From positions 1-22,654 of IMG/VR virus record IMGVR_UViG_3300017989_000460: a stretch of DNA of 22,654 nt; one strand, 5' to 3'. The notes beneath the pieces were generated by a model, which saw only the letters and a program-made list of their open reading frames with translations, was not told where the DNA came from and ran no database searches. This document shows positions 5,081 to 22,654 of this stretch, piece by piece. Numbering within the stretch: position 1 is the stretch's first letter; the number at the start of each line of letters is the position of its first letter. The position numbers were made by a program, and so were the translations under genes. This stretch comes from a virus.

Positions 5081-5306
5081 CGACTTGGACGGTGCCATAG
5101 AAGACGTAAGCGCGATCGGCCAAGCCATCGTGCATGCGTCGCTGGAACTCGTCAGCGTCCAGGTATTGGACGAGAACGGCGAGCCGACGGACGCGACGTG
5201 CGTCATCAGTTGGTCGGACAACGCATGCGAGCAGCTTGGCACGCTCGCGCGGGATGCTGTCATCGCGACGGCGATATCACGAAACGGAGCCGTGGGACAT
5301 GGCTAA
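5040..5306 (+). CDS. Unknown 88-aa protein in the place of Mu F
   Basis: The product is a small soluble protein with no signal or membrane segment. It has a central hydrophobic helix (AIGQAIVHASLELVSVQVL) and a short beta-like region (ATCVISWSDN). A GAGGT site eight bases upstream favours ATG 5040, and GTG 5019 in the same frame is an alternative. It overlaps the portal gene by 41 bases and the protease gene by 8. In Mu the minor head protein F (gp30) lies between portal and protease and is several times larger. This protein has no visible F features, so its role is unknown. Confidence 0.65.
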   Translation: MGKALQPIRLSLNSDLDGAIEDVSAIGQAIVHASLELVSVQVLDENGEPTDATCVISWSDNACEQLGTLARDAVIATAISRNGAVGHG

Positions 5307-6474: not shown

Positions 6475-6500
6475 GTCGGCGAGCTGTTGGGAGGTAACAC

Positions 6501-7607
6501 ATGACGGCACTTACGGCTAATGCGAATGTCACTCGCCTTGTCGATCAGGAATTGCGAGAGTTCCCGGTCGGCGCCGCGGTGACGATCTACCGGGGCGGAT
6601 TCGTCGGGATCGACCCGGCGGGGTACGCCAAGGACTTTGAGCCGGGCGACCTGTTCGCGGGTATCGCCTACGAGTACGTCGACAACTCGTCGGGTGCGGC
6701 TGCTGCCGACAAGGTGCGGGTATACACTCAGGGCGACTTCGAGTTCACGCTGACGAGTGCGGCCCTCACGGACGTTGGTAAGCCGGTCTACGCGACCGAC
6801 GATTCGACGCTGGCTCTGACGGGGCACCCGGATGCCTACGTGGGCAAGGTTGTCCACTACGAAGCTGCGAATACGGTCATCTTCCGCATGCGGCAGTGGG
6901 GCGAGGCGCCGCCGAACGGCAACGGGTCGATTACGCTCGGCCTCACGGGGCACGAGACGTTCACCGAGACCGGCGCGACGGCGGGCACGTTCACGCTCAA
7001 CGGGTTCGACGGCAAGTCGGCGCTCGGGCTCGGCATTCTGATGGCCGACGCCGAGAACGCCGGGATTACGTTTCAGTTCGACGCGACGGCTGAGGTTGCT
7101 CTTGCGTCGATCCGCACGACCGACGACCGTCTGCCGATCGACAAGGGCGTGACGATGGACGTGGAGCTTGTCGTATCCGACAAGGGAGACGATGCCGCGC
7201 TCGATATTGACTGGGGCTTCGGCACTGCGCTGACGACGAACTCCGAGGCCGACATCGACCACGCGGACATGGTGCAACTCGCCTGTTTCCACATGAACGG
7301 GAACAGCGACAACATCCTGTGCCAGTCGGACGACAACACGACCGACGTTGCGGCTACGGACTCGACCATTGACAACGACTCGACGACGGACGTTGCCAAG
7401 AAGTTCAAGATCATCGTGCGCCCGGCTGGGACGGTTGAGTTCTGGATCGCCGGTGCTCGCGTCCTTTCGTCCACGTCGTTCGGTGTGCTCAGCACGGCGA
7501 ACCTCGCGGCGTTCATCAACATGGAAAAAACGTCGAACGATACGACCGCCGTTCTGACGTTCCGAAATCTTGTGGTCAAGGGTGGCACGGCCTCTTGCGC
7601 GTACTAG
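6501..7607 (+). CDS. Capsid decoration-like protein with extra C-terminal domain (368 aa)
   Basis: Residues 1-133 look like a small capsid decoration/cement domain of the kind encoded just before Mu T-like capsids. They form a short beta-rich module with VTIYRGGFVGIDPAGYAKDF and LFAGIAYEYVD. A Gly/Pro/Asn linker (134-142) leads to a second, beta-rich domain of about 225 residues (143-368). It has many Asp/Thr residues and no motif I know, ending in VLTFRNLVVKGG. A sandwich or lectin-like fold on the capsid surface is possible, but that is inference. A strong GGGAGGT site lies four bases before ATG 6501. Typical decoration proteins are only 100-150 residues. Confidence 0.7.
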   Translation: MTALTANANVTRLVDQELREFPVGAAVTIYRGGFVGIDPAGYAKDFEPGDLFAGIAYEYVDNSSGAAAADKVRVYTQGDFEFTLTSAALTDVGKPVYATDDSTLALTGHPDAYVGKVVHYEAANTVIFRMRQWGEAPPNGNGSITLGLTGHETFTETGATAGTFTLNGFDGKSALGLGILMADAENAGITFQFDATAEVALASIRTTDDRLPIDKGVTMDVELVVSDKGDDAALDIDWGFGTALTTNSEADIDHADMVQLACFHMNGNSDNILCQSDDNTTDVAATDSTIDNDSTTDVAKKFKIIVRPAGTVEFWIAGARVLSSTSFGVLSTANLAAFINMEKTSNDTTAVLTFRNLVVKGGTASCAY

Positions 7608-7637
7608 AGGGCGCCCGTTTGAACAAGGAGCCATGAT

Positions 7638-8609
7638 ATGGCAGTTATCAATACCGGGTTGCTCGAAAAGGGGCTGCGGAGCACGTTTTTCGAGCGATTC
7701 AATCAAGTGCACGGCCAGCAGACCGTGTTCCAGGACCTCTGCACCGTTGTGCCGAGCGACAGGAACCAGGAAGTCTACAAGTGGCTCGGGCAGGTTCCGG
7801 CGGTGCGAGAGTGGGGCACTGGGCGTAAGGCCAAGGGGCTGCACGACGAGTCGTATACCGTCGAGAACCTGAAGTACGAGGCCACGATCGAGGTCGACCG
7901 GGACGAGATCAGCGACGATCAGACCGGGCAGATTCGCATCCGCACGACGGAGATGGCGAACCGTGCGGCGTGGCACAAGGACTACCTGTTGGCGCAGTTG
8001 ATCATCAACGGATCGACCTCGGGCTACAACAGCTACGACGGCACGGAGTTCTTCGCGTCGGATCATACGTTCGGCTCGTCGGGCTCGCAGGCCAACGAGG
8101 GCAGTTTCGACGTTGGAACGGTCGCCGGGGCGAACCTGTACGATGAGCCGGACAGCGCGACGCTTTGGGGGCCGCAGACGGCGCTCGCCGCCTACAACGA
8201 TGCGGTCTCTAAGATGCTGCGCTTCAAGGACGACCAAGGTGAGTACATGCACCGGTCGCCGGGCGGGTTCGTCGTCGTCTGCTCGCAGGCGAAGTTGCAC
8301 ACGTTCCAGAAGGCTTTCGGCGCGATGTTGCTGCCGCAGGTCGGCACGAATGTGACGCCGTACGATTCGCCGCCTCGCGTGATTGCGATGCCGGACTTCA
8401 CCGTCAATACCGCGTTCTATGTCTTCAAGACCGACGGCACGGTGCGTCCGTTCATTCTTCAGGACCGCGAGCCGGTCGAGTTCGCTGCGCTGGAGCGGGG
8501 CTCGGAGGAAGAGTTCAAGCGCGAGAAGTACCTGTACGGCGTTCGGGCTCGCTACCGCGTCACGTACGGGCAGCCGCTCTGCGCGTACGCTGTCACGATG
8601 ACCACGTAG
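7638..8609 (+). CDS. T: Major capsid protein, Mu T-like (323 aa)
   Basis: This is the HK97-fold shell subunit. It matches the Mu gpT family in length (about 305-325), in position after protease/scaffold, and in segments. These include the start LLEKGLRSTFFERF, the N-arm/E-loop part VPSDRNQEVYKWLGQVP, ENLKYEATIEVDRDEI and FFASDHTF, and a C-terminal AALERGSEEEFKREKYLYGV followed by RARYRVTYGQPLCAYAV. There is no visible N-terminal delta domain, which agrees with a separate scaffold. AAGGAG lies seven bases before ATG 7638. The 30-base gap to the upstream gene shows no terminator. Confidence 0.92.
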   Translation: MAVINTGLLEKGLRSTFFERFNQVHGQQTVFQDLCTVVPSDRNQEVYKWLGQVPAVREWGTGRKAKGLHDESYTVENLKYEATIEVDRDEISDDQTGQIRIRTTEMANRAAWHKDYLLAQLIINGSTSGYNSYDGTEFFASDHTFGSSGSQANEGSFDVGTVAGANLYDEPDSATLWGPQTALAAYNDAVSKMLRFKDDQGEYMHRSPGGFVVVCSQAKLHTFQKAFGAMLLPQVGTNVTPYDSPPRVIAMPDFTVNTAFYVFKTDGTVRPFILQDREPVEFAALERGSEEEFKREKYLYGVRARYRVTYGQPLCAYAVTMTT

Positions 8610-8623
8610 GAGGCACAGCAGAG

Positions 8624-8878
8624 ATGTCACAGGCGATCATGCACGGGCCGCTTAAGAAGCCGGTAACGGAGTCGGCGCGGGGGAAGCTTGCCCGCCAACT
8701 CGGGTTGTCGATCGATGCGGGCGACATTCAGCTTATGCAGGATGCCGCAATCGAGATCGAACGGCTGCGCGAACTTGCGAACGAGGCGCCGCCGCCGTCT
8801 GCGGTTGGCGCACCGACGCAGGTTGTCAACGCGGAACCGGCGAAGCGGCGCGGGCGACCGCCGAAGAATCGAGGATAG
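8624..8878 (+). CDS. Small protein with C-terminal AT-hook-like tail (84 aa)
   Basis: The protein is helical for about residues 15-55 (SARGKLARQLGLS, QLMQDAAIEIERLRELANE), then a Pro/Ala linker. It ends in KRRGRPPKNRG, which contains the R-G-R-P core of an AT hook. It sits where Mu has gp35, between the capsid and the gp36-like connector. A role in contacting packaged DNA or the head interior is possible. GGAGG lies about ten bases before ATG 8624, partly inside the capsid stop codon. The short length and disordered tail limit the confidence in function. Confidence 0.7.
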   Translation: MSQAIMHGPLKKPVTESARGKLARQLGLSIDAGDIQLMQDAAIEIERLRELANEAPPPSAVGAPTQVVNAEPAKRRGRPPKNRG

Positions 8879-8883
8879 CGGCG

Positions 8884-9360
8884 ATGGGATACCACGTCAC
8901 AACGGATCAACTGATTGCCCGGTTCGAGTCCGAGGCTGCGGTAGCGCACCTGACGGACGCGAGCTTTGATTCGGCGGATACCGACGTGCTGAATGCGATC
9001 ATCAACGAATCCGAGGGGTTCGTGTACTCGTATTTGGCTCGCCGGTACAAGACGCCGGTCATTACGGTGGGCGATCCGCAACTAGAGTACGTGCTCGAAG
9101 GCATCGTGCTCGACATTGCGCAATACCGGCTGCTTGCGCGCGGCAACAACATCACCGACGCCAAGCAGCAGGTGTACGATCACGCTTTGAAGTGGTGCGA
9201 AGGCGTCGCCGACGGAAGTATTCCGCTGCCTGCCGAGGCGCAGCCGGACCCGACTGAGGTGCGGAGTCCGGTTGCGTCTTGGGGCAGTGGGGACTTTGAC
9301 GAGGACAACGATTCGACGAACCGTCGGATCTTCACGCGGGACTCGTTGTCAAACCTATGA
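8884..9360 (+). CDS. Head-tail connector, Mu gp36 / DUF1320-like (158 aa)
   Basis: The N-terminal 95 residues are helical and fit the DUF1320 head-completion family: YHVTTDQLIARF, LNAIINESEGFVYSYLARRY, a Val/Pro turn, then LEYVLEGIVLDIAQYRL. The tail (about 105-158) is acidic, Pro/Ser-rich and probably flexible. Such proteins form an adaptor ring below the portal. It follows the AT-hook gene by five bases. Its stop overlaps the next ATG (ATGA), as usual for a connector pair. Confidence 0.85.
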   Translation: MGYHVTTDQLIARFESEAAVAHLTDASFDSADTDVLNAIINESEGFVYSYLARRYKTPVITVGDPQLEYVLEGIVLDIAQYRLLARGNNITDAKQQVYDHALKWCEGVADGSIPLPAEAQPDPTEVRSPVASWGSGDFDEDNDSTNRRIFTRDSLSNL

Positions 9361-11059: not shown

Positions 11060-11238
11060 CGGCACTTCCCAAGAGTGCGCGGGCGGGCGGCTGGGCAAGG
11101 GCGCTCGGGGAGATGTGCTATTACTACAACATGGGCGTTAACGAGGTGCTCGATTTGCCTTGGCCCACGTTTCAGCGGTTGCACGCGGCTTTGTCGGATA
11201 TAGCGTCTGCGGACGCGGCGAGGCGGTCGAATGGCTGA
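11053..11238 (+). CDS. T-like extension, probably read by -1 frameshift from the G-like gene
   Basis: The -1 frame relative to the G-like gene is open from 10891 to the TGA at 11236-11238. It reads like protein (GGWARALGEMCYYYNMGV, EVLDLPWPTFQRLHAAL). Between 10891 and 11113 it has no ATG, GTG or TTG start. ATG 11113 has a GGGGAG too close to serve as a binding site. A slip on CCC-T (11050-11053, Pro CCT read as CCC) two codons before the G stop would give a 200-residue GT fusion with 61 added residues. A different slip point within 10891-11059 is possible. The frame ends 8 bases inside the tape measure gene. Confidence 0.65.
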   Translation, partial: YLAALPKSARAGGWARALGEMCYYYNMGVNEVLDLPWPTFQRLHAALSDIASADAARRSNG

Positions 11239-12568
11239 AGAACTCGGACAGCTAGTATACGAGATCGACGCGAAGAACGACCGTCTTAAGAAGTCGGTCG
11301 CGCAGTCTCAGCGCATTATGAAGCAGGGCGCGGACAAGATGTCCGCCTCGCTCGGCAAGGTCGAAAAGGCATCTCTCGAAACATCGGACGGACTCGGGCT
11401 GCTTGAGAAGGCGGCGGCTGCGACGGGGCAGGCGTGGCTCGGTCAGGTCAAGGCCATGATCGAGTTCGTCATTCAGTCCGTCAAGATTCGGACGGCGTTG
11501 TCGGCAACGACAGCGGGATACGCGGCGGAAACGGCTGCGATCAACCGCAACACGGCAGCGAAGATGGCGAATGCTGGCGTGGGGCCGGGCGGTCGCATTT
11601 CACGCGCTATCGACCCGATGGCCGACCTGCTTGCGTCGGGCGCCGGTGGGGCTGGCGGTACTGCGGCTGTTCAGTCCGGCATCTTCGCCAAGGCCACCTC
11701 TGCCATCGGCTCTTTTGCGTCCGCGATCGGTATCGCCACTGCCGGGCTTGCGGCGCTTGCTGCCGGAGTTATCGCGTTTGACCGCGACCTTTTCGGCATG
11801 AAAACCAGCCTTACCGACTGGTGGTACAACGTCGGCGAGGCCCGCGAGACCGAAGCACGGATGGAGGCCGAGCTTGCCAAGCGGCAGGCGGCGAAAGCGT
11901 CCGCGCTAGACCTCCTGTCTCGGCAGATTTACGTACAGCGCGCGGGACTTGTCGGTGGCGCAGCCGTCAACGCTCTTGGGCAAGGCCGGGTGGATGCGGA
12001 CATTCTGCGGAGCCAAGTCGAGCTTGCCGAACTGCAACTCAAGCAGCGGGAAGAGGCGGAACGCACCGCCAACGCAAAACAGGCGATAGCAGCGGCAGCC
12101 GCCAAAGAGCGGGTGGAAACCGAAAAGGCGATAGCCGCCATCCGCGAGCGCGGCGCGCTTATGGTCTCGCAGAAGCAATGGGCGATTGCCACGGGCACGG
12201 CATCGCCGGAAGACATGCGGAAGCACGCCGAATCGCTTGCGAGGCAGGCGTCGGCGCAACAGCGAGGCCGAGACGCGCTCGTTCAGGCGTTGCGGGCTAC
12301 GGATTTGCCCGGCGCCCGGCTTGTGCTCAAGTCGATGGGGCTCATCGGCGGCGACGGCGCGGCGAGCGCGCCAGTTCCGGCCATGCTACCGCAGGGCGAC
12401 GCTACCGGGCGACGCTGGCGGGAGCTTGGCATGCAGGCCCCGGTTTGGGGCCAAGGTGCGTCGGGTAACCAGCAGACCGGGGAGGTGCTCGTCCGCGAAA
12501 GCAAGCGGCAAAGCAGTACGCTTGAACAGATCGAACGCAACACGCGCGGCGGGGGGCTCCGACCGTGA
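11231..12568 (+). CDS. Tape measure protein, short (445 aa)
   Basis: The start resembles other tape measures: LGQLVYEIDAKNDRLKKSVAQ and IMKQGADKM. The body is Ala/Gly-rich and helical. A hydrophobic segment lies at about 157-183 (AIGSFASAIGIATAGLAALA), and a long charged coiled coil at 258-308 is rich in Glu, Lys and Ala. The C-terminal third is Gly/Ser/Pro-rich and flexible. Tape measures set tail length by about 0.15 nm per residue, so 445 residues imply a tail of roughly 65-70 nm, half that of lambda. There is no muramidase or peptidase motif. The start is ATG 11231, and the stop overlaps the next GTG. Confidence 0.82.
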   Translation: MAEELGQLVYEIDAKNDRLKKSVAQSQRIMKQGADKMSASLGKVEKASLETSDGLGLLEKAAAATGQAWLGQVKAMIEFVIQSVKIRTALSATTAGYAAETAAINRNTAAKMANAGVGPGGRISRAIDPMADLLASGAGGAGGTAAVQSGIFAKATSAIGSFASAIGIATAGLAALAAGVIAFDRDLFGMKTSLTDWWYNVGEARETEARMEAELAKRQAAKASALDLLSRQIYVQRAGLVGGAAVNALGQGRVDADILRSQVELAELQLKQREEAERTANAKQAIAAAAAKERVETEKAIAAIRERGALMVSQKQWAIATGTASPEDMRKHAESLARQASAQQRGRDALVQALRATDLPGARLVLKSMGLIGGDGAASAPVPAMLPQGDATGRRWRELGMQAPVWGQGASGNQQTGEVLVRESKRQSSTLEQIERNTRGGGLRP

Positions 12569-13518
12569 GTAGCTACACGAAACTCGCCGAATCGCACGTA
12601 GGCCGACACGACGGGGTGAATCCGTCTGATCAGGAGACGTACCTTGTCGAGATCGACGCCATTACCGACGATCCGGTCGCGGTACTGTCTACGGCGTCGG
12701 CTGTTCCTCGCGGGACACCGCACCCGCACGATTCCACGCTATTCGCACAGTCATACGACATCGTTTCACGGGAAAACCCCTATCACTACAGGGTGCGCGT
12801 CAACTACGGGCACTTGTCGGGCGTAGATTACGCAAACGACGATTGGCACGTGTCGTATTCGTCGTCTTCGCAGCCGTATACGATGCGTAAGACCGTAGGG
12901 TCGGACGCAACGGCCAAGATCATCGGTCCGCTCGTGTACAAGTCGGCGGACCCCATGACGCCGCCGAACTACGTCGAAGCTCCGGCCTCTCCGACGCACA
13001 AAACGCGACTCGTCGGGGGCACGGAGCAAGACCTATGGGTGACGGAGCAGCGTAAGGCAATAGGGCACCCGGCAGAATGGCCGTCGGTCTACATCACGTT
13101 TTGGAAAAACGTGCCGACGATCTACCGCACGATGGGACGGCGGGTATCGCAGTACCTCGAAACCACCAACGCCGACATTCTCACAGTCAACGGGGACGAC
13201 GTTGCGTATGCCCACGAACTCATGTTTAAGGGCTTCGGCATCACCGAAGGGACGGGAACGCTGCCGGGTGGCGGTCAGGACGAATACGGGCGCATATACC
13301 GCATCGAACTGCAGTTTCTCTGGGTCGAAAAGTTCGACGACGCCGACAACCCGGGCGAATTCATCGGCGGACATACGCCACTGCGGCTCTATCACCAGTA
13401 CGTCGACGATCAGGGCAACGAATCGCAGGTGTTCACGCTGGACGGTAAGCCGGTGTGGGAGAATTTTGACGTGGCGCACGTGCGGGACTTCGGCACGTTG
13501 TTAAGCATCGTGGGATAG
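12565..13518 (+). CDS. Tail-tip/baseplate protein, unknown family (317 aa)
   Basis: This soluble, mixed beta protein has many aromatic residues and no signal or membrane part. It starts at GTG 12565, overlapping the tape measure stop (GTGA). Being the first gene after the tape measure, it occupies the slot of the distal tail protein. Segments such as DPVAVLSTASAVPRG, YHYRVRVNYG and YRIELQFLWVEKF suggest layered beta sheets. No known distal-tail signature is visible, so the role is positional only. Confidence 0.7.
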   Translation: MSSYTKLAESHVGRHDGVNPSDQETYLVEIDAITDDPVAVLSTASAVPRGTPHPHDSTLFAQSYDIVSRENPYHYRVRVNYGHLSGVDYANDDWHVSYSSSSQPYTMRKTVGSDATAKIIGPLVYKSADPMTPPNYVEAPASPTHKTRLVGGTEQDLWVTEQRKAIGHPAEWPSVYITFWKNVPTIYRTMGRRVSQYLETTNADILTVNGDDVAYAHELMFKGFGITEGTGTLPGGGQDEYGRIYRIELQFLWVEKFDDADNPGEFIGGHTPLRLYHQYVDDQGNESQVFTLDGKPVWENFDVAHVRDFGTLLSIVG

Positions 13519-13519
13519 C

Positions 13520-14383
13520 ATGGCACGACCGGGCGACAACCTACCCGCGTTTCAGGCGGGCCAGCGCTTCGACGACCTGTCGGCAGGCGAATTGCGCGCG
13601 ATGGTCGAGGCTGTGCGCCGTGCGGACAACATCGTCGGAGGTCCGGGTATCGACATACGCGACCACCAGGGCGGCAAGGTTGTCAGCCTCGCGGGCGCCG
13701 GTTTCGACGGGTCGCCGGACGTGCGAACGTGCGTTGTCGCCAAGTACCCGGACGGCGGATGCTCGCGCATGCTCGTGCGGGAGGTCAAGCACTACGATGC
13801 GCCGCCGCAGGAGGATCGGTACACGTGGGCGGGGCCTCCGTTCTGGGCATACCCCGATTTCGGGCGCGTGTGCGAGGATTACCGTGCCGTCAGCTACGCG
13901 GAAGAGGGCGACGATGTAGACCTCATGTTCCCGCCGGGCTTGGACGCGCCGTTTCTTCGCGTGCGACCTGCGGGCGATACGTGGATTGTCGAGTACCCGA
14001 GCGCCGGGCCAGCGGGCGGGCGTTTCGTCATCCTTCGCGGCTATCACCCCGCGTCGGGCGAAGACGGGCTGTTTGTGCTCGCCGAGACGGCTGTGCATAG
14101 CGACACGGACCCGTGGGACGGGCAGTGGACGATTCAGGGCTCGCAGGCTGCCGATTACGAGCCCGAGCCGTACGTAGTTGCGACCTATCCGCACGTGCCC
14201 GCCAGGTACTACGAGCCGTGGTTCTGGCGTGTTGCCGACGGGCCGACGACGTTTTTTACGGACGTGCTGCCGGTGACGAAGATCGCGGGCGTTTGGACGC
14301 TGGAGCGTCCGATCCCGCCGATCGAGACGGCGCGGCTGCAGGGCAACCCGGTATTCGCACCTCGCTGCGACGGGACAGGATGA
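13520..14383 (+). CDS. Tail-tip protein, unknown family (287 aa)
   Basis: The N-terminus is helical (FDDLSAGELRAMVEAVRRAD) and followed by GGPGIDIRDHQGGKVVSL, a kind of segment common where phage tail proteins join a fibre. The rest is beta-rich and full of Trp, Tyr, Pro and Asp, with three cysteines in the TCVVAKYPDGGCSRM and RVCEDY segments. It starts one base after the previous stop, with only a weak GGGA upstream, so coupling is likely. I do not recognise the family. A host-facing tail part is plausible. Confidence 0.68.
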   Translation: MARPGDNLPAFQAGQRFDDLSAGELRAMVEAVRRADNIVGGPGIDIRDHQGGKVVSLAGAGFDGSPDVRTCVVAKYPDGGCSRMLVREVKHYDAPPQEDRYTWAGPPFWAYPDFGRVCEDYRAVSYAEEGDDVDLMFPPGLDAPFLRVRPAGDTWIVEYPSAGPAGGRFVILRGYHPASGEDGLFVLAETAVHSDTDPWDGQWTIQGSQAADYEPEPYVVATYPHVPARYYEPWFWRVADGPTTFFTDVLPVTKIAGVWTLERPIPPIETARLQGNPVFAPRCDGTG

Positions 14384-14386
14384 TAT

Positions 14387-15184
14387 ATGGGTGCGTGTTG
14401 CTACGGACAGGCGTGTTACGACCAAGACGAGGCGTCGTGCCTCGACGCGGGCGGCGCGTATTATCCGGGCGAGACCTGCGACGGATTCGAGTGCCCCGAG
14501 TTGGTGTCGGCCTGTTGTTGGGGCGACGGCCATTGCTCGGACCTGACGCCGAGCGAGTGTTTAGCGTTCGGCGGGAGCCCCGAGCCTGCGGGCAGATGCG
14601 CGGACCTGCCCGGGCTTGGGCTCGACTGTCCGCAGACGGAGCCGCCCCGGGCGTGCTGTCTGCCGGACGGTCGGTGCGTCGAATACTCGATCGGGCATTG
14701 TTCGGCGCTCGGCGGGAGTTCCGCGCCGGTCGACGTGCTGTGCGACGGGTGGGATTGCGAGCAGGCGGTATGCCGCAAGAACCGCCCGGAGCCGGTCGGT
14801 GCCCGGTGGTCGGCTGACGAGCACGAGATTGCCCCGTTCGGGCCGCACAAGGACGCGAACACGGGTCGGTGGGACATGCTGTCGCACTACGGCATCCGGG
14901 CGTCGAAAGACGGGCTCGACCAGCGACGCGAGAGCCCGTGCCGGTATCACTACGCCTACCCGCGGAAGCGACCGGACGGACTCGGCGAATACGTCATGTG
15001 CGGTGCCCCGAGCGAGGGCGGCGACGAGGACATCGGCATTCCGACGAAGCGGCGCTGGTATCGAGGGGTTGTCTTCAAGGACGCGGACAGCGGCGAGTGG
15101 AAGCTTGCTATCGGCTGGGCGAACCGAGAGAAGTACGAAGCGGCGTACTACAAGCAGCGGCACCTTTGTTTGGGTGTGCGGTAA
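14387..15184 (+). CDS. Cys-repeat tail protein with three six-cysteine repeats (265 aa)
   Basis: Residues 3-125 contain three tandem repeats of about 40 residues with the plan CC-x4/5-C-x7-C-x3-GG-x7/8-C-x4/9-C. The cysteines are at 4,5,10,18,31,36; 43,44,50,58,71,81; and 90,91,97,105,119,124. I know repeats of this plan, with cores like ACCLPDGRC, from secreted proteins of planctomycetes. After an extra C129 comes an ordinary C-terminal domain (about 135-265) with many Arg, Tyr and Asp residues. There is no signal peptide, so if disulfides form they do so outside the cytoplasm after release. It follows the preceding gene by three bases. Confidence 0.72.
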   Translation: MGACCYGQACYDQDEASCLDAGGAYYPGETCDGFECPELVSACCWGDGHCSDLTPSECLAFGGSPEPAGRCADLPGLGLDCPQTEPPRACCLPDGRCVEYSIGHCSALGGSSAPVDVLCDGWDCEQAVCRKNRPEPVGARWSADEHEIAPFGPHKDANTGRWDMLSHYGIRASKDGLDQRRESPCRYHYAYPRKRPDGLGEYVMCGAPSEGGDEDIGIPTKRRWYRGVVFKDADSGEWKLAIGWANREKYEAAYYKQRHLCLGVR

Positions 15185-16920
15185 TGGGTTGCACGGGCAA
15201 CACATGCGAGGGTCGGGACGGTCGATGTTACTGCGATGACTTCGATTATGGAGATCCTACGTTCGGGCGCCGCCGGTGTTGGACTCGGATCGAAGACCGA
15301 GACGAGTACGGGCAGCTTGGGATGGTCGGTTGTGCGGGCGGGTGCAAGCCGCTTGACGATTCGCCGTCTCGGGGCGAGTTCGCCGGATCGTTCGGATGCT
15401 CGACGCTTGCGTTTGACCATCTCGCGCCTAACCGTACATTCCTGATTCCGGACCCGGATGCGCTTGAATTCGAGCAGGTGGACGCGCACGGCGCGCACGC
15501 TGACCTGCGACACAACGACCCGCACCTGTACGATCGACCTGTGCGGTTTATGCGCCCCAGCGGCTCGGCGTTGGACGGTACAACGTGCTTCGCCGAGCCG
15601 TGCGCCTTTTATCTCGGCGCGGACGCGCACGAGGGCGCAGACGGAACAGGCGTCTGCCACGACCCCGGAAATGCGCGTGTTGGGCAGGCCCTTGAGGGCC
15701 TCGCTACCGACGGGTTCTTCTACTACGGCAACAACTGGCCACCGACGATCCAGTGCCGGAAGTTCGACGAGTATCCGGGCAGCCCGTGGGACTACGTCAA
15801 CCGGGTGCAGATCGACCCCGAACACCCGCGTATGACTCAGTTCCTGCGAGAGTCGCAGCAATCGAGCATCAACCGGGACGCGGCTGGCGGTGCGAATCTC
15901 TGGCATACCGGGGCGTTTCACGACCTCATGGTATTTGCTGCCGGTCGCGTGCTTATGCCCCCCTACGAGTGCCCCAGCGGGTTCGGGCGCGAGGAGTACA
16001 TCGACGGGCCGGACCAGATGGCGGCGCATACCGAGTACATGGAGCACGTGCATTACGGTTGCATCGGGATGTGCGACCAGATCACGGTCGGCGTCCACGA
16101 GCCGCTCGGTCTGGCTGGCGGGCGGCACGAGTCCCAGATTTGGGCGGTCGCGCTGGATCGCGTGTTCGCGTCGCCATTGCCGAACCTCGGTTACGGCGAC
16201 GGGGATATGTCGAGGCTCATCCATTCTGTTCGTCGCGGCGTCGGGTCGCAGGAATCGGAACTCGGCCAGTTCAAGAAGCATTGGATTTCGTGGGACGCGG
16301 GCCCGCAGGCCGACTATCCGCTCGTGTGGCGCTACGACAACTGCACGACCCGGAAGGGCGAGCACGTGCTTGCCGAGTTGCTGCTTGTGCGTGCTGACGT
16401 GCGGCTGCGGTTGGTTATCCAGCGGCTCGGGATTCATTACGGCGCGAACAACTACGCCTATTTCGTCATGCCCCACGCGGCGGTCGATGTCGTGGCGCAT
16501 CTCGGCTTGCGGCTGACGACCGAGGCTGACGTGCGGTACGGGGCGAACATGGCGGATTGGCCGACGATCAACGGCCTTCCGGTGCACGAGGGGCTGGTTT
16601 TCCGCCACGCTTCGGAGCGCTTCGACACGCCACCGAGGCGCTGCCATTGGGAGGGCGTGCTCAACAACTCGTCTTCCCCGTCGCTCGCCGATCAGGACTT
16701 TGTGGCGAGTCGCGGCAGCCGGGCCGAGGTCGAGGGCACGATCAATCTGGCGCAGGCGGCGAAGCGGGGCACTCACGCGATCAACGGATTCCGCGTCGGC
16801 GCTGTGCCGTCGCATCTGGACACGTACCCGGGCGAGCGTCGCTTCGGGACGGGGCAGCTTACGTTTTCGTTTGACGGGAATGGGAATTGGGACGCATGCG
16901 ATCCACCGGGCTGGATGTAG
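15184..16920 (+). CDS. Large Cys-rich tail protein, unknown (578 aa)
   Basis: The first 55 residues are rich in cysteine (MGCTGNTCEGRDGRCYC, CAGGCKPL) and echo the Cys-rich start of the preceding gene. The rest is a large globular protein with many His, Asp and Tyr residues (HAHADLRHNDPHLYDRP, AFHDLMVFAAGRVLMPPYEC, HVHYGCIGMCDQ) and a beta-rich C-terminus ending FSFDGNGNWDACDPPGWM. The ATG overlaps the previous TAA by one base. A tail-tip enzyme or receptor-binding protein is possible. I cannot assign a catalytic motif with confidence. Confidence 0.68.
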   Translation: MGCTGNTCEGRDGRCYCDDFDYGDPTFGRRRCWTRIEDRDEYGQLGMVGCAGGCKPLDDSPSRGEFAGSFGCSTLAFDHLAPNRTFLIPDPDALEFEQVDAHGAHADLRHNDPHLYDRPVRFMRPSGSALDGTTCFAEPCAFYLGADAHEGADGTGVCHDPGNARVGQALEGLATDGFFYYGNNWPPTIQCRKFDEYPGSPWDYVNRVQIDPEHPRMTQFLRESQQSSINRDAAGGANLWHTGAFHDLMVFAAGRVLMPPYECPSGFGREEYIDGPDQMAAHTEYMEHVHYGCIGMCDQITVGVHEPLGLAGGRHESQIWAVALDRVFASPLPNLGYGDGDMSRLIHSVRRGVGSQESELGQFKKHWISWDAGPQADYPLVWRYDNCTTRKGEHVLAELLLVRADVRLRLVIQRLGIHYGANNYAYFVMPHAAVDVVAHLGLRLTTEADVRYGANMADWPTINGLPVHEGLVFRHASERFDTPPRRCHWEGVLNNSSSPSLADQDFVASRGSRAEVEGTINLAQAAKRGTHAINGFRVGAVPSHLDTYPGERRFGTGQLTFSFDGNGNWDACDPPGWM

Positions 16921-17477
16921 AACTTGACGCGGCTACCGAGGCTGCGATTCGCAACGGTGCGAGGCGACCGATTACGCCTGCGCCGGAGCAGGCCGTACGC
17001 CAGGAGCCCCGAGAACGCGTAGAAAGGCAGCGCCACGCCACGAAGCCGCCGCGATGGGGTTACGAGGCGTTGGTAGGCAGGCTGCACCAGGCGGCTCAAT
17101 ACGGCGTTATCACGGTGCTGCGGCACATCCTCATCGGCTGGTTGTTGCGCGGCCTGCGGTGGTACCCCAAGGTCAAGGATTTTCTGCGGGCAATAACCGG
17201 CGGGCGGGTCGGTGCTGGGGAATACGCTGCACGGATGTCGGCGTGTGCCACGTGCCCGTCGCGGCTGTTGCATAAGGCGCGCGCCTATTGCGGGGCGTGC
17301 GGGTGCGGAAAATGGATTCTCGCGCGACTGTCGGTTAAAAACAGCTTCCGGCGATGGGCGTGCCCACTGGGGCGGCACCCCGGCCAGCGTGAGGAGGCAG
17401 GCGATGTTCGCACGGATCGTGTTGGCGGTGTTGTTGACGGCGGCGACGGCGGGCGCGGGCGAGCGGGTCAAGCTTAG
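16896..17477 (+). CDS. Small protein with zinc-ribbon-like Cys motif (193 aa)
   Basis: The first third is charged and Arg/Pro-rich. The middle has a semi-hydrophobic stretch (YGVITVLRHILIGWLLRGL) that could touch a membrane. Residues around 112-150 carry C-x2-C-x10-C-x2-C-x-C and later a further C in RRWACPLGRHPG, a pattern suggesting metal binding. ATG 16896 is preferred to the TTG at 16887. It overlaps the previous gene by 25 bases. The last 24 codons overlap the next gene and look compositionally like read-through (Gly/Arg/Asp/Val-rich). Function is unknown. Confidence 0.6.
   Translation: MRSTGLDVELDAATEAAIRNGARRPITPAPEQAVRQEPRERVERQRHATKPPRWGYEALVGRLHQAAQYGVITVLRHILIGWLLRGLRWYPKVKDFLRAITGGRVGAGEYAARMSACATCPSRLLHKARAYCGACGCGKWILARLSVKNSFRRWACPLGRHPGQREEAGDVRTDRVGGVVDGGDGGRGRAGQA
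17392..17397 (+). promoter_or_regulatory. AGGAGG ribosome binding site for the leader-bearing fibre start
   Basis: AGGAGG six bases before ATG 17404 is the best match in this stretch. It argues that the longer, leader-containing form of the fibre is translated. Confidence 0.6.
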
Positions 17478-18405
17478 TTGGCCTCGAAAGGCGGCAGATA
17501 TGGCGGCAACCTACAAGACGACGCGATGGAACAACGGCGCCGCCGACGGCGACTGGGAAAACGACGCCAATTGGGATAACGACGCGCCGAACGGCGGCGA
17601 CACGGCGATTTTCCCGTCAGGTGTCGGCGGCGAGGTAACGACGAACCTAGACCAGTCGGACCTCACAGACAACGATGCACCGCCGGTCGCCGACAAGCTC
17701 GCCAAGCTCATCACGGAAAAGGGCAACACCACGAAAATCGGAAACTCTGGCGCGTACCTCAAGATCGCTACCGAGGAGGTCGTCCTGCGCGGCTCTGGCG
17801 ATGTGTACTACGATGACGAGTTCGACGTGGCTGGCAACACCGAGTCCATCACCGTTGACGTGCATCCGTCGGCTACGGTTTATCTCGACGGCGACGACAT
17901 CGATAGTCTGCTATGCACGTCAGGGACGACCGAGATTACGTCGGCTCTGGCGGCAGGCATAGCGAACACGCGACTTGCGGATTCCCCGACATGGCACACG
18001 TCGCCTTTCGTGCAGTACGGAAGCAACGGCGCCAGCTTGTCACCTACATCGTTCGTGTACGTCGATTCCGGCCAGCTTACTATCGAAAAGGGCGTCGCGC
18101 TTATCGTGCAAACCGGCGGTACGGTAACCGTGGGCGGCAACCCCGTGTCGACGATCTACAGCCGTGTCGTTATGACCGGCGGCGTGATGTACTACAACCT
18201 GCGCGAGTCGGGCGTCGGGGCCGAGATCGGCCAACTGGATATCGGCGGGAGCGCGGTATTCGACCTGCGCGAGGACGCCCGGACGTTCGAGTTTAACGGA
18301 TACGTATACCTGCGCACGGGCGGCACGATTCGCGCATTCGGCGGGCAGATTGAATGGGGCGCTGGCGGGCTGTACAAGCGCGGCGGCAATCTCATAGAGG
18401 ATTAA
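17404..18405 (+). CDS. Beta-rich fibre protein with possible signal peptide (333 aa; 301 aa from second start)
   Basis: From ATG 17404 the product begins with a typical export signal (FARIVLAVLLTAATAGAG). The fibre body starts at an in-frame ATG 17500 (MAATYKTTRWNNGAADGDW). The body is made of repeated beta strands (SATVYLDGDD, GQLTIEKGVALIVQTGGTVTVGG, GGVMYYNLR), suggesting a beta-helix or solenoid. The WNNGAADGDW...NWDNDAPNGGDTAIF segment resembles the start of many planctomycete secreted beta-solenoids and of the next gene. The strong AGGAGG site favours 17404. The 17500 start has only a weak AAAGG. Both may be used. Confidence 0.7.
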   Translation: MFARIVLAVLLTAATAGAGERVKLSWPRKAADMAATYKTTRWNNGAADGDWENDANWDNDAPNGGDTAIFPSGVGGEVTTNLDQSDLTDNDAPPVADKLAKLITEKGNTTKIGNSGAYLKIATEEVVLRGSGDVYYDDEFDVAGNTESITVDVHPSATVYLDGDDIDSLLCTSGTTEITSALAAGIANTRLADSPTWHTSPFVQYGSNGASLSPTSFVYVDSGQLTIEKGVALIVQTGGTVTVGGNPVSTIYSRVVMTGGVMYYNLRESGVGAEIGQLDIGGSAVFDLREDARTFEFNGYVYLRTGGTIRAFGGQIEWGAGGLYKRGGNLIED

Positions 18406-18408
18406 GAC

Positions 18409-19263
18409 ATGGCGACCACGATTTGGACGGGCACGACAGACGGCGACTTTACCGACGACACCAACTGGTCGGGCAGTTCGCCAGCGAACACCAACACGGT
18501 GCTATTCCGCGATGGTGCGTCCAACGGATGCACTTCGGCGCTGCAGACGGGCTCCAACGGCGAAACATACCCCAAGCTGTCGATTTCGCGCGGGTACACC
18601 TACGATTTCGGCGCGTCCGGCGCGGCCAACTACCTCGATGCGACGCTTACAGAGTTGTCGTGCGAATGGGGCGGCAACGGCACGGCATACTTCGACGGCG
18701 CGATCACCAACGGCGTTATCGACTGCTACGGTAGCGGGCTGGTCAAGTGCCAGTCGGACCTGACGAGCGGCGACCTCAGCATCCGCGCGGGCCGCGTGCA
18801 GTTTGAGTCGGCGGCGGACCTGGAAAGCGCCGACATTCGCATTTGCCCGAGGGCTGGGGCCTCGACGCCACCCCGCGTCACGATCGACAGCGGCGCGACG
18901 ACGACCACGAGCACGATTACCGTGGGCGGCGGCGAACTGGTGTCCGCGCAGGCGCTCGTCAACCTGTTCATCTACGGCGGCGTCGTCAAGGTGACCGGGA
19001 CGGCAACGATTGCGACGGTACGCATGTACGGCGGCACGCTGCTTTGGGACAGTTCGGGAACCATAACGACGGCCTACGTGGGCGGCAACGCGACGCTTGC
19101 AACCACTGAGTACCTGCGCGAGAAGACGCTTACGACGCTTTACATGGACCACGATGGCATTGTTGACCTTCGTGCCGGTGGCGATCACGTTACCGTCACC
19201 AACTGCTGGATCAGCGGCGCCAATAGCCCGATGCTTTCGCCGGGCGCCAAGATTGCGATTTGA
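18409..19263 (+). CDS. Paralogous beta-solenoid fibre (284 aa)
   Basis: The start MATTIWTGTTDGDFTDDTNW is followed by NTVLFRDG, the same plan as the neighbour's second start (W-x-x-G-x-x-D-G-D/W, N-W, then x-T-x-x-F). Many short beta strands with Thr/Gly/Ser turns follow (ITNGVIDCYGSGLVKCQSD, GGELVSAQALVNLFIYGGVVKVTG, ATIATVRMYGGTLLWDSSG), ending in IVDLRAGGDHVTVTNCWISG. It probably arose from the preceding gene, or the two share an ancestor. The start ATG 18409 has GAGG about eight bases upstream. A tail-fibre or surface-binding role is inferred. Confidence 0.7.
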   Translation: MATTIWTGTTDGDFTDDTNWSGSSPANTNTVLFRDGASNGCTSALQTGSNGETYPKLSISRGYTYDFGASGAANYLDATLTELSCEWGGNGTAYFDGAITNGVIDCYGSGLVKCQSDLTSGDLSIRAGRVQFESAADLESADIRICPRAGASTPPRVTIDSGATTTTSTITVGGGELVSAQALVNLFIYGGVVKVTGTATIATVRMYGGTLLWDSSGTITTAYVGGNATLATTEYLREKTLTTLYMDHDGIVDLRAGGDHVTVTNCWISGANSPMLSPGAKIAI

Positions 19264-19266
19264 TAC

Positions 19267-19683
19267 ATGATAGACCCACGCGGAATCATACGGCAGCGCA
19301 TGTGCGGCACGTCCGACATGGACGACGTGGACGGGTTCGGCACGCAGGACGGGACCACCGGGCGAATCGCTCGGTTCTATCTCGCCGACCGCAAGTTCTG
19401 CCTGTCGGCTCTGCGCGTGCATTTCAGCGGCGGCACGGGCACGGCGACGCTATACCTCAAGGTCGACGCGAAGGCGGGCACGCCGTACGACACAACGCTG
19501 TTCGAGCTTACGGGCGCGGGCACGGGCGTGGACATTAACCTGCGGATACCGGACGAAGAGTTGCGGCACTGGTGTTTTCATCCGGGCGACGAGTTGACGC
19601 TCGAATGGGAGAACCCGGACGACGGCAATATGGCGTGGGGCGCGACGTGCGACCTGCTGCCAGCGGAGGCGATCGGTGCCTAA
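19267..19683 (+). CDS. Small beta-rich tail protein (138 aa)
   Basis: The product has MIDPRGIIRQRMCGTSD, then strands such as IARFYLADRKFCLSALRVHFSGG, GTATLYLKVD and DELTLEWENPDDG. This is a beta-sandwich-like pattern with three separated cysteines. It begins three bases after the previous stop and overlaps the next gene by eight bases. A host-recognition accessory or fibre-tip domain is possible. I do not recognise the family. Confidence 0.62.
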   Translation: MIDPRGIIRQRMCGTSDMDDVDGFGTQDGTTGRIARFYLADRKFCLSALRVHFSGGTGTATLYLKVDAKAGTPYDTTLFELTGAGTGVDINLRIPDEELRHWCFHPGDELTLEWENPDDGNMAWGATCDLLPAEAIGA

Positions 19684-21604
19684 GGCAACCCGCAAGGACG
19701 ATGCCGCGACGAATCGCCAGACGGCGCCGGTCGACGCCGACGAGGTGTCCTTCGTGCCGAACGACACGTCCGACTGGTCGGGCAGCGTCGATCCGGGCAC
19801 GGTCGCGGACGCACTCGACCAACTCGCCAGCACAGGCGGCGGGGGCGGCAGCAGTGACACCTACAAGACCGTCACGGGCGACACGGGCAGCACGGTTGCC
19901 AGCGGCGAAGACACGCTCAACGTCGAGGGCGGCGCGGGCATCGAGACGACGGTTACGAGCGACAACGTAGAGGTCGCGCAGACTTCCACGCTGTTCATCG
20001 TTGGGGCGGCGGGTAGCGGCGGCACGACGGTCTCGGACAAGAACTACGAGGCGGGCACCAGCCCCGCGAGCAAGGTACTTACCGACTTTGACTGCGACGG
20101 CGACAGCCTGACGATTGACGTGGAGGCGGACGCGGGCGCAGGGGCGACGGTTGCGAGCGGATGGCAACCCGCCGTTACGGTGTACGGGCCGGGCGGGGAG
20201 AGCCACGCAGTTACGCTCAGTCAGATCGACGATACGCGACGATTCGAGGGGACGGCTACCTTTTCGGCGGCGGACCAGGACGGCACGTTTTACGCGACAA
20301 GTGCGGACGGCGGCAGGTCGCAAGATGTCGCCTACGACCGCCTCGAAGACCCGCCCGTGTGCTCGTCGGCCACGTGGGGGCAGTACGACGGCGGCTGGAC
20401 GGGCAGCGAGTACCCCACGTCGCCGGACACGGGCGCGCAGACGGCGGTCAAGAGCGGCGACACGATCGACATACAGTTTACGCTCGACTCGTCCGCGACC
20501 AACATCCAGGTCACCAGTTCGGGCGCGTCGTCCAGTACGCAAAACTTCGGGGGCTCGTACTCCAGCGGCACCAACTACATCGAGGGCGTAACGTGCGGCT
20601 CGGCTAGCGGTTCGCAGGTGTTCACGATCAAGGCCAACCGCGACGGCGGGACATACGGCGCGACGACGAACACCGACTCTATCTCGATGGACCAGACGGA
20701 CCATTCGTACACGAGCGTCCACAACCACGTCTTTTCGCCGGTCGACAACTTCGCGCTCGGCTCGGGCGATAGCTGCACGGCGGATGTGCAGATTACCAAC
20801 TGGGCCGCAGGGGACTACGCCGAATACACCTCAAGCGAGGTGTCGATTACATCGGACACGACCTACGCCGAGACGAAAACGTACACGTACGCGAGCGGGT
20901 CGTATCGGGACAGCGGCACGAACGTCACGCTCACGAGCAGGCGCAAGGCGAACGGCAAGCAGGACAGCACCACCTACCTCATCAAGATATGCAATCGCTC
21001 GCCCGTTCTCACGGTTAGCGGCGCGACGGCGCGTTTGCGCTCGCGCGCGTCTGGCGGCGACAAGACCTACGGTATCACGTTGTCGTGCAACAACGAACTC
21101 AAGGATACGCCGACGCTGGCGCGCGATGCGGCTGACGACGGGGATGCCCTGCCGGGCCTGAGTGGATCGGAGCCAGATAAGACGTGGACGGCTAATATTG
21201 CGATTGGCGAGGAAGACACGAAGAACACAGGCGCCAACTCGCATACGTGGACGGGCATTTCGGCAGAAGACGGCGCGGGGAACACGGTTAGCTCGATTAC
21301 GACCAACCCCGACTACACGGTCGGCGGGTTCGAGGAGCGCGACGTAGCGATGGCGCGCTTCGATCAGTACAACGCCATCGGGACGATGGTCAGCAACAAG
21401 AACAACGCCAGCCTGCTTAACTGTGAGGTGCCGGAATACGGCAAGACCTTGACCTACGTCGGCAGCGTGACGCCGACAACGGACGGCTTCACCATCACCG
21501 ACAGCAGCGGGAACTTCGACGCGGATGGCGACTACGTGCGCTGCCTCGACTCGAACATCTACGACGCGGCGGCGTATACCATGCGCATCAGCGAGGACGC
21601 ATAG
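19676..21604 (+). CDS. Large fibre protein (642 aa)
   Basis: It starts at GTG 19676, overlapping the previous gene by eight bases. The N-terminal part contains GTVADALDQLAS followed by a GGGGGSS linker and TYKTVTGDTGSTVASGEDTL, a phage-fibre style entry. The body is Thr/Ser/Gly/Asp-rich with repeated strands. It holds many GTN/TSS segments and few hydrophobic cores, like an elongated trimeric fibre. No endosialidase or lyase motif is clear. The C-terminus (QYNAIGTMVSNKNNASLLNC...) may be a distal domain. Receptor binding is inferred. Confidence 0.75.
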   Translation: MPKATRKDDAATNRQTAPVDADEVSFVPNDTSDWSGSVDPGTVADALDQLASTGGGGGSSDTYKTVTGDTGSTVASGEDTLNVEGGAGIETTVTSDNVEVAQTSTLFIVGAAGSGGTTVSDKNYEAGTSPASKVLTDFDCDGDSLTIDVEADAGAGATVASGWQPAVTVYGPGGESHAVTLSQIDDTRRFEGTATFSAADQDGTFYATSADGGRSQDVAYDRLEDPPVCSSATWGQYDGGWTGSEYPTSPDTGAQTAVKSGDTIDIQFTLDSSATNIQVTSSGASSSTQNFGGSYSSGTNYIEGVTCGSASGSQVFTIKANRDGGTYGATTNTDSISMDQTDHSYTSVHNHVFSPVDNFALGSGDSCTADVQITNWAAGDYAEYTSSEVSITSDTTYAETKTYTYASGSYRDSGTNVTLTSRRKANGKQDSTTYLIKICNRSPVLTVSGATARLRSRASGGDKTYGITLSCNNELKDTPTLARDAADDGDALPGLSGSEPDKTWTANIAIGEEDTKNTGANSHTWTGISAEDGAGNTVSSITTNPDYTVGGFEERDVAMARFDQYNAIGTMVSNKNNASLLNCEVPEYGKTLTYVGSVTPTTDGFTITDSSGNFDADGDYVRCLDSNIYDAAAYTMRISEDA

Positions 21605-21813: not shown

Positions 21814-22654
21814 ATGGCGGACATTGACGAACTGATCGCGGGTATAGACGGGCTACTTGGCACGCTTGCCAACATGACCGACTTGGGCACGTGGGGCACA
21901 CCTACGGACTACTCCCTCATCGTGCGTCAGGACCAGCCCGCCGGGTCGGGGTCGTCGCAATACAAGTGCGAGGATCTGCCGATGGGCACGCAGACCGTCA
22001 TCGGTCGCGGCGCGTCGGGGGACATCGCTGCGGTCAGCTTGTCGGAGGAGCAGGTGCTCGGGCGCGCTTCCGGCGGTAACGTCGGCGCCGTCAACTTCAG
22101 CACCATCCTTGCCACGAGCCACAACCACGCAGCCAGCGAGATTACTAGCGGCACGCTGGACAACGGCAGGGTGTCGTCGGGCAACGTCACGCAGCACGAG
22201 GGCGACATTGACCACGACAACCTCACAAACTTCGTTGCCGACGAGCACGTCGATCACACGGGCGTTACCATCACGGCGGGCACGGGGCTTGACGGCGGCG
22301 GCGACATATCCGCCAACCGCACGATCAACATCGACTCAACCGTCACGACGCTGACCGGCTCGCAGACGCTCACCAACAAGACGCTCACGACGCCGACGAT
22401 CGGCGACTTCACGAACGCGACGCACGATCACGCAGATGCGGCAGGCGGCGGCAACCTCGCGGCGAAGTATCGCCAGCACTCGCACATGTTTTATCTGTCG
22501 GAGCCCGCGACGGACGATGCCTACGTCATGTTCTCGGTGCCGGTCGCATCGACGATCAAGCAGGTGAAACATCGGTGCTACGGATCGAGCACGCCGACGG
22601 TGGATTTCAACATCGAAGAGCGCGGCATGTCCGATCCAGAAGCGGCGGGCACTA
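21814..22654 (+). CDS. Tail fibre, truncated by the window edge (280+ aa)
   Basis: The frame starts at ATG 21814 and is open to the last base. The N-terminal 20 residues are a short helix (ADIDELIAGIDGLLGTL), perhaps the attachment to the tail. Then come classical fibre motifs: SHNHAASEITSGTLDNGRV (102-120), HTGVTITAGTGLDGGGDIS, and LTGSQTLTNKTLTTPTIGDF (180-199) followed by HDHADAAGGG. Such motifs recur in phage and prophage fibres of many hosts. The C-terminal receptor-binding part lies outside the window. Confidence 0.85.
   Translation, partial: MADIDELIAGIDGLLGTLANMTDLGTWGTPTDYSLIVRQDQPAGSGSSQYKCEDLPMGTQTVIGRGASGDIAAVSLSEEQVLGRASGGNVGAVNFSTILATSHNHAASEITSGTLDNGRVSSGNVTQHEGDIDHDNLTNFVADEHVDHTGVTITAGTGLDGGGDISANRTINIDSTVTTLTGSQTLTNKTLTTPTIGDFTNATHDHADAAGGGNLAAKYRQHSHMFYLSEPATDDAYVMFSVPVASTIKQVKHRCYGSSTPTVDFNIEERGMSDPEAAGT

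Follow-up and report, generated by a model that had tools for sequence, protein, structure and literature searches.

Six-cysteine repeats in a phage tail-region protein belong to an unnamed bacterial family and likely share a fold with a unit of the iRhom homology domain

Three tandem repeats of six cysteines each form the N-terminal part of a protein encoded in the tail region of a virus, and these repeats are real, non-chance members of a protein family. We studied them in a window of 22,654 bases, the whole stretch of DNA analyzed here (IMG/VR virus record IMGVR_UViG_3300017989_000460), where the gene at 14387-15184 (plus strand, like the repeats within it) encodes 265 amino acids with 22 cysteines and without a signal peptide. 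Repeat 1 comprises residues 2 to 38 (14390-14500; profile domain of 23.2 bits), repeat 2, with a longer loop ahead of its last cysteine, residues 42 to 82 (14510-14632; 31.7 bits), and repeat 3 residues 89 to 126 (14651-14764; 33.4 bits). The remainder of the protein (residues 127 to 265; 14765-15181, plus strand) belongs to no known family. Cysteines are found at positions 4, 5, 10, 18, 31, and 36 in the first repeat, at 43, 44, 50, 58, 71, and 81 in the second, and at 90, 91, 97, 105, 119, and 124 in the third; residues 4 to 124 hold 18 of them, and the other four are at 129, 185, 205, and 261. Repeat 1 follows the spacing CC-x4-C-x7-C-x3-GG, and repeats 2 and 3 follow CC-x5-C-x7-C-x3-GG, in each case with two further cysteines afterwards.

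A profile was constructed from 268 repeats, all of them taken from bacterial genomes and none from viruses, and was searched against all open reading frames of the window. It recognized the 14387-15184 protein at 75.8 bits (E = 6e-23) in three domains, with all six cysteines and the GG, and the second-best open reading frame scored 6.6 bits. When residues 1 to 130 were shuffled 5,000 times, the maximum obtained with this profile was 11.3 bits. The core DNA pattern of the repeat, CC-x2-DG-x-C-x3-T-x2-[DE]-C-x3-GG, occurred twice in the window, both times within this gene, and never in 100 dinucleotide shuffles. An earlier note on this DNA had described three repeats with this spacing and 18 cysteines, and that description is correct.

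The repeat is a family without a name and without a model in Pfam, NCBIfam, or PHROGs. None of these three collections gave a real match to the 14387-15184 protein, and searching them across the aligned relatives returned scattered weak matches only (best E = 0.0005). TIGR04201 (Myxo_Cys_RPT), likewise a cysteine-rich repeat of bacterial proteins, was considered and rejected: it did not match the protein up to E = 1, and just one of 37 aligned members reached E = 0.041. The whole protein had no close relative in IMG/VR, among INPHARED phages, or among PDB sequences. Consensus repeat arrays had no match in INPHARED or PLSDB, in searches where low-complexity filtering may mask cysteine-rich matches. 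A literature search of open-licence papers returned none on the six-cysteine repeat or on its relation to iRhoms.

Scanning 84,980 GTDB species with the core pattern yielded at least 117 loci. By their record titles, 91 of the 117 listed loci carry planctomycete names, mostly Phycisphaerae or Phycisphaerales, and nine are Eisenbacteria; the others belong to KSB1, Zixiibacteriota, Gemmatimonadetes, Atribacteria, and "Proteobacteria," include one labelled Leptolyngbya, or have no taxon name. We then counted genomes with a 36-repeat profile at E = 1e-5 or better, assigning to each sample the class or phylum of its center genome, which is itself counted among the positives. The repeat was present in 47 of 198 genomes (24%) of the class of a Phycisphaerales metagenome-assembled genome (MAG), which is probably Phycisphaerae, many positive genomes holding 20 to 38 counted copies each, and in 8 of 246 genomes sampled from the phylum of the same MAG. 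In other samples, 18 of 47 genomes (38%) from the phylum to which an Eisenbacteria MAG belongs were positive, as were 14 of 189 from that of another MAG, deposited as Proteobacteria, and 2 of 7 genomes of a small phylum. Enrichment of the repeat in Phycisphaerae is strong, yet the repeat is not exclusive to planctomycetes; the tie to planctomycetes suggested by the earlier note therefore holds as an enrichment and, given the positive genomes of the Eisenbacteria and other phyla, fails as a specific trait.

The same note had likened the repeats to those of planctomycete secreted proteins, a likeness borne out by the names of the listed loci and by the N-termini of the proteins. Of the 92 bacterial repeat proteins whose 5' end is complete, 78 begin with a sequence that a home-made rule classes as signal-peptide-like, and dockerin-like repeats form the C-terminal end of many. 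All six cysteines are kept in 651 of 663 complete repeats (from 800 repeat domains, 765 of them distinct). Cys1 was lost in three repeats and Cys4 was lost along with it in all three, a small hint that these two residues may be bonded to each other. By profile, the phage protein and the secreted proteins of Phycisphaerae and Eisenbacteria contain the same repeat, arranged in tandem at a spacing of ∼40 residues. The secreted proteins are longer, however, with signal peptides and often with dockerin-like or other C-terminal tails, whereas the phage protein has neither; by the home-made rule, none of the seven window proteins checked, including this one, has a signal-peptide-like start. The QG motif that commonly follows the GG in bacterial repeats is also absent from the repeats of the phage protein. 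What phage and bacterial proteins have in common is the domain and not the secretion route. A C-terminal tail, VPT-x4-WG-x-IK-x2-(F/Y)R, is common to repeat proteins of Eisenbacteria and "bacterium Co_bin.215" (loci L014, L019, L020, L070, L086, L099, and L111), and it may perhaps be a sorting signal.

AlphaFold2, run with a 37-row alignment, modelled the repeats well as units of a beta-hairpin, a helix, and a strand (pLDDT of ten-residue blocks mostly 79 to 96, with 58 around residues 71 to 80), and it gave no confident model for the poorly modelled C-terminal half. The full-length model had no significant Foldseek match in the PDB or BFVD, probably because the C-terminal half was not modelled, and a single-repeat model was needed. 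Modelled alone, repeat 3 reached a pLDDT of 87.5. When this model was compared by Foldseek with 350,542 PDB chains, three iRhom chains ranked first to third (TM 0.73 to 0.74, 1.6 Å over 39 columns, 26 to 31% identity), and the next chains had a TM of 0.48 or less. VIA-align superimposed 43 of 43 residues on iRhom at 1.8 to 1.9 Å (Z of 4.4 to 4.9, 23 to 28% identity) and gave no non-iRhom chain a Z of 2 or more among 41 compared; the identity figures of both comparisons include the six cysteines. Structure prediction, which had been proposed as a check on the repeats, has in this way provided a unit that matches part of the iRhom domain. VIA matches of residues 169 to 265 (PC4-like, COMMD, and others, with Z of about 3 to 4.4) fall in the low-confidence part of the model and were set aside.

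Searching the PDB with the repeat sequence profile returned the same iRhom segment first, with all six cysteines aligned (E = 0.085 to 0.11), and up to E = 10 it returned only iRhoms and one bacteriocin. The individual E-values of the iRhoms are marginal (0.085 to 1.5), since the unit is tiny. The iRhom2 unit reached 22.6 bits when scored by the bacterial-only profile, and the maximum in 3,000 shuffles that kept the cysteine positions was 18.2 bits. The last third of repeat profiles A2 (the profile of 36 repeats) and A9, GG-x-Y-x-G-x-G-x2-C-x4-C, also gave a weak match to the YGNGVSC region of carnobacteriocin B2 (PDB 1ry3; E = 0.12 to 0.32), probably by chance.

The matched part of the iRhom homology domain (IRHD) of human iRhom1 and iRhom2 is its second CC unit, at about residues 571 to 606 of iRhom2 (PDB 8snl; iRhom1 is represented by 9q7y and 9xy4). 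This unit and the phage repeat have their six cysteines in equal order and at near-identical spacing. The iRhom domain differs in being one 240-residue ectodomain of a membrane protein with no tandem array, in which we detected one complete unit and a second, partial match at the first CC; the 265-residue phage protein, which has no rhomboid domain and no Pfam match, is not part of a rhomboid-like membrane protein. In solved structures, the iRhom domain is extracellular and stapled by eight disulfides (PMC11248996, PMC12184519), which engage all of its cysteines (PMC11248996, PMC10148629), and it presents a protein-binding surface (PMC11248996). Its fold has been called unique (PMC10148629), and a comparison with the PDB and with human AlphaFold models was reported to find no similar structure (PMC11248996). 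On the basis of the predicted models, the six-cysteine repeat and the iRhom unit likely share a fold, and common descent of the two is possible. A further proposal sees in the six-cysteine module an ancient extracellular domain that is widespread in Phycisphaerae, other bacteria, and phages and whose descendants are contained in the animal iRhom homology domain; this is tentative, and we regard it as rather less probable than its opposite.

The 14387-15184 protein is a member of a tail-region cassette common to two phages with different heads. The second phage is a 37-kb record (G009, of which contig L002 is a part), and phmmer detected no relation between its head genes and those of the window. 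Upstream of the cassette lies a probable tape-measure gene of 445 codons (11231-12568; this and the following cassette genes are on the plus strand), which has no family match and was assigned by position only: the G009 gene in the same place encodes a tape-measure protein, confirmed by PHROG at E = 1e-49. It is followed by genes for 317 (12565-13518) and 287 (13520-14383) amino acids, which align with G009 homologues at E = 5e-5 and 1e-7, respectively. The counterpart of the repeat protein in G009 is a cysteine-containing protein of 397 amino acids which starts with MGACC and has five repeat-like units, and the alignment of the two proteins extends past the repeats as far as residue 212 of the window protein (E = 6e-9 in a single comparison).

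Downstream, the repeat gene overlaps its neighbor by one base. This fourth gene (15184-16920) encodes 578 amino acids with 18 cysteines and was paired with a G009 protein of 571 amino acids and 16 cysteines by place, length, and cysteine content, the BLASTP E-value of 0.15 being not significant. The product of the fifth gene (16887-17477) has a zinc-ribbon-like motif, C-x2-C ... YCGACGCGKW, and homologues in several phages, that of G009 matching at E = 6e-13. Two G009 proteins in the same place match the two further genes (17212-18405 and 18409-19263), with E-values against the latter of 5e-10 and 4e-8, and a fibre-like gene that runs past the window end (21814-22654) has a G009 homologue at E = 2e-10. 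Homologous genes flank the repeat protein on both sides in G009, in the same order as in the window. A search for further copies of the cassette with genes 1 and 2 found none beyond G009.

In siphophages, the tail-tip genes are located behind the tape measure. By gene order, the 14387-15184 protein would be located at the tail tip; window genes between the tape-measure place and 19676 had no family or structure match naming any tail component. The location in a tail that the earlier note had assumed draws support from the gene order shared with G009, where the tape-measure gene is confirmed. Its idea that the repeats were acquired from the host finds no such backing as far as the present host is concerned, since the protein sits in a cassette that also occurs in a phage with unrelated head genes.

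Several neighbors of the repeat gene deserve mention in their own right. Small zinc-ribbon-like proteins of the type C-x2-C ... YCGACGC(G/P)KW ... CP are encoded in the window (16887-17477), in L003 (11222-11716), in L135 (7436-7948), and in L195, L197, and L198, recurring 3' of tail-type or cysteine-rich genes in unrelated phages; in L195 the 16887-17477 homologue again lies 3' of a cysteine-rich protein (31 cysteines), which is without clear repeats. Both cassette phages contain a neighboring related gene pair with a W-x-N-x2-G-D ... N-W start (window 17212-19263 and L141 7104-8739). For the 642-residue product of 19676-21604, the PHROG match was phrog_15433 (E = 2e-29), whose label, tail sheath, is odd for the distal end of a tail region and may be wrong.

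The window encodes a terminase, a Mu-type portal, and a Mu-type capsid, and its head genes (portal, protease/scaffold, 6501-7607, major capsid, and connector; 3779-9360, plus strand) match chromosomal loci of the Phycisphaerae class. Full-length homologues of the portal, with up to 41% identity, are present in the class of the Phycisphaerales MAG, where 64 of 298 genomes have matches; the capsid protein is 53 to 55% identical to those of Phycisphaerae proviruses over 311 amino acids. The fetched Phycisphaerae-class regions likewise contained matches to the protease/scaffold, 6501-7607, and connector genes, and none to the terminase and the tail genes. Elsewhere, the capsid protein had one match at 36% identity in the phylum of the Eisenbacteria MAG (1 of 47 genomes) and matches of 26 to 39%, mostly over partial stretches, in the phylum of the MAG deposited as Proteobacteria (11 of 189 genomes). 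We thus consider the host of the phage to be most likely a member of the Phycisphaerae, as suggested by the head-gene sequences and not by the repeat, and the earlier guess of a planctomycete host gains independent support from these genes. The homologous blocks in the 64 genomes match portal, protease, capsid, and connector and are mostly single copy; they might represent Mu-like proviruses, remnants, or gene-transfer-agent-like elements. Phycisphaerae proviruses with the head module were without the repeat protein, and six-cysteine open reading frames were found in just 1 of 40 provirus regions, within chromosomal-type proteins.

Scanning IMG/VR with two DNA patterns yielded 20 contigs carrying the repeat, on which the gene labels are our own reading, without database matches behind them. 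These contigs are diverse (GC of 35 to 65%, some with collagen-like fibres) and vary widely in the number and sequence of their repeats. In L133, a probable tail region ends with five repeats; in L127 the repeats adjoin probable terminase genes, in L005 the gene with a single repeat lies between probable portal and probable capsid genes, and in L007 one repeat is near replication-type genes. Such placement beside head, terminase, or replication genes speaks against the tail-tip reading of the window protein. The repeat is not bound to a single phage lineage and, since the other viral carriers are unrelated, it is by itself a weak host marker for viruses; its presence in non-planctomycete phyla weakens the suggestion that it might help to predict hosts, an idea that the varied contigs themselves neither favor nor exclude. 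Compared by sequence, 35 of 41 viral repeats were nearer to a bacterial repeat than to a repeat of another viral contig, which may fit repeated capture by phages, weakly so because the set of bacterial repeats exceeds the viral one 16-fold. In the low-GC contigs L003, L125, L131, L134, L135, and L138, we observed strings of genes for very long cysteine-rich proteins with up to 217 cysteines per open reading frame, many with collagen-like N-termini (GPTGPTG).

The 14387-15184 protein would most likely act at the tail tip as a stalk or an adhesion module stapled by disulfides, and we lean slightly toward a tail-tip protein whose rod of three stapled modules would serve as an extracellular arm of a Phycisphaerae phage. 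Each module of the N-terminal rod, with its ∼38 residues, would consist of a beta-hairpin, a short helix, and a strand, and its six cysteines would most likely pair in three disulfides. Disulfides are favored by the secreted bacterial relatives, the near-invariant cysteines, the iRhom match, and the lack of C-x2-C pairs. Phage proteins are made in the reducing cytoplasm, where disulfides do not readily form, so the bonds would arise after cell lysis, once the virion meets an oxidizing medium. Stapling would make the arm stiff and protease resistant, and the arm would carry or position the C-terminal part and contact the host surface along with neighboring cassette proteins. The module itself would be a general extracellular building block of Phycisphaerae, Eisenbacteria, and others, taken up by phages more than once. 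Phage tail and fibre proteins are known to bear add-on domains, Ig-like and collagen-like ones among them. Like these, the six-cysteine repeat is a small extracellular module which also occurs in host secreted proteins and is grafted on tail-region genes of unrelated phages; unlike them, it has another fold, is rich in cysteine, and is known here from genes and predicted models.

We think it unlikely that the repeats themselves bind the receptor, mimicking or docking onto host surface proteins that contain the same repeats, with the array as a host-recognition element instead of a stalk. Secreted proteins of the likely host class contain the same repeats in abundance, the iRhom domain is a protein-binding surface, and the repeat occurs in 31 of the 36 genomes that had a portal match and belonged to the repeat sample as well. 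This co-occurrence could, however, be explained by host relatedness alone, there is no evidence that repeats of the family bind one another, and viral repeats are highly variable in number and sequence. Binding of zinc or iron by the six cysteines in the cytoplasm, without disulfides and with a function in tail assembly, would agree with synthesis in a reducing compartment and with the zinc-ribbon-like product of the neighboring gene 16887-17477, but we judge it quite improbable, as the bacterial relatives are secreted, the matched iRhom domain has every cysteine in a disulfide, and the repeat offers no C-x2-C ligand pairs. That the gene is a moron, taken recently and incidentally from a host, carried in the late region, and acting outside the virion, is very improbable: the window repeats are individually nearest to bacterial repeats and some viral carriers, such as L007, have theirs outside structural modules, but the G009 positional homologue with homology reaching past the repeats, the homologous neighbors on both sides, the one-base overlap, and the missing signal peptide all argue against it.

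With these results, the role of the repeats becomes a question for structure, disulfide, and adsorption experiments on the 38-residue unit. Our analysis defines a protein module that is unmodelled in the family databases searched and that phages carry in tail and other genes. It illustrates, too, that a domain frequent in one group of hosts is, taken alone, an unsafe basis for naming the host of a virus that carries it. The module is also a first candidate relative for a human iRhom domain that had been reported without a known relative and, if the tentative reading of an ancient domain is true, a human regulatory domain would have bacterial and viral relatives.
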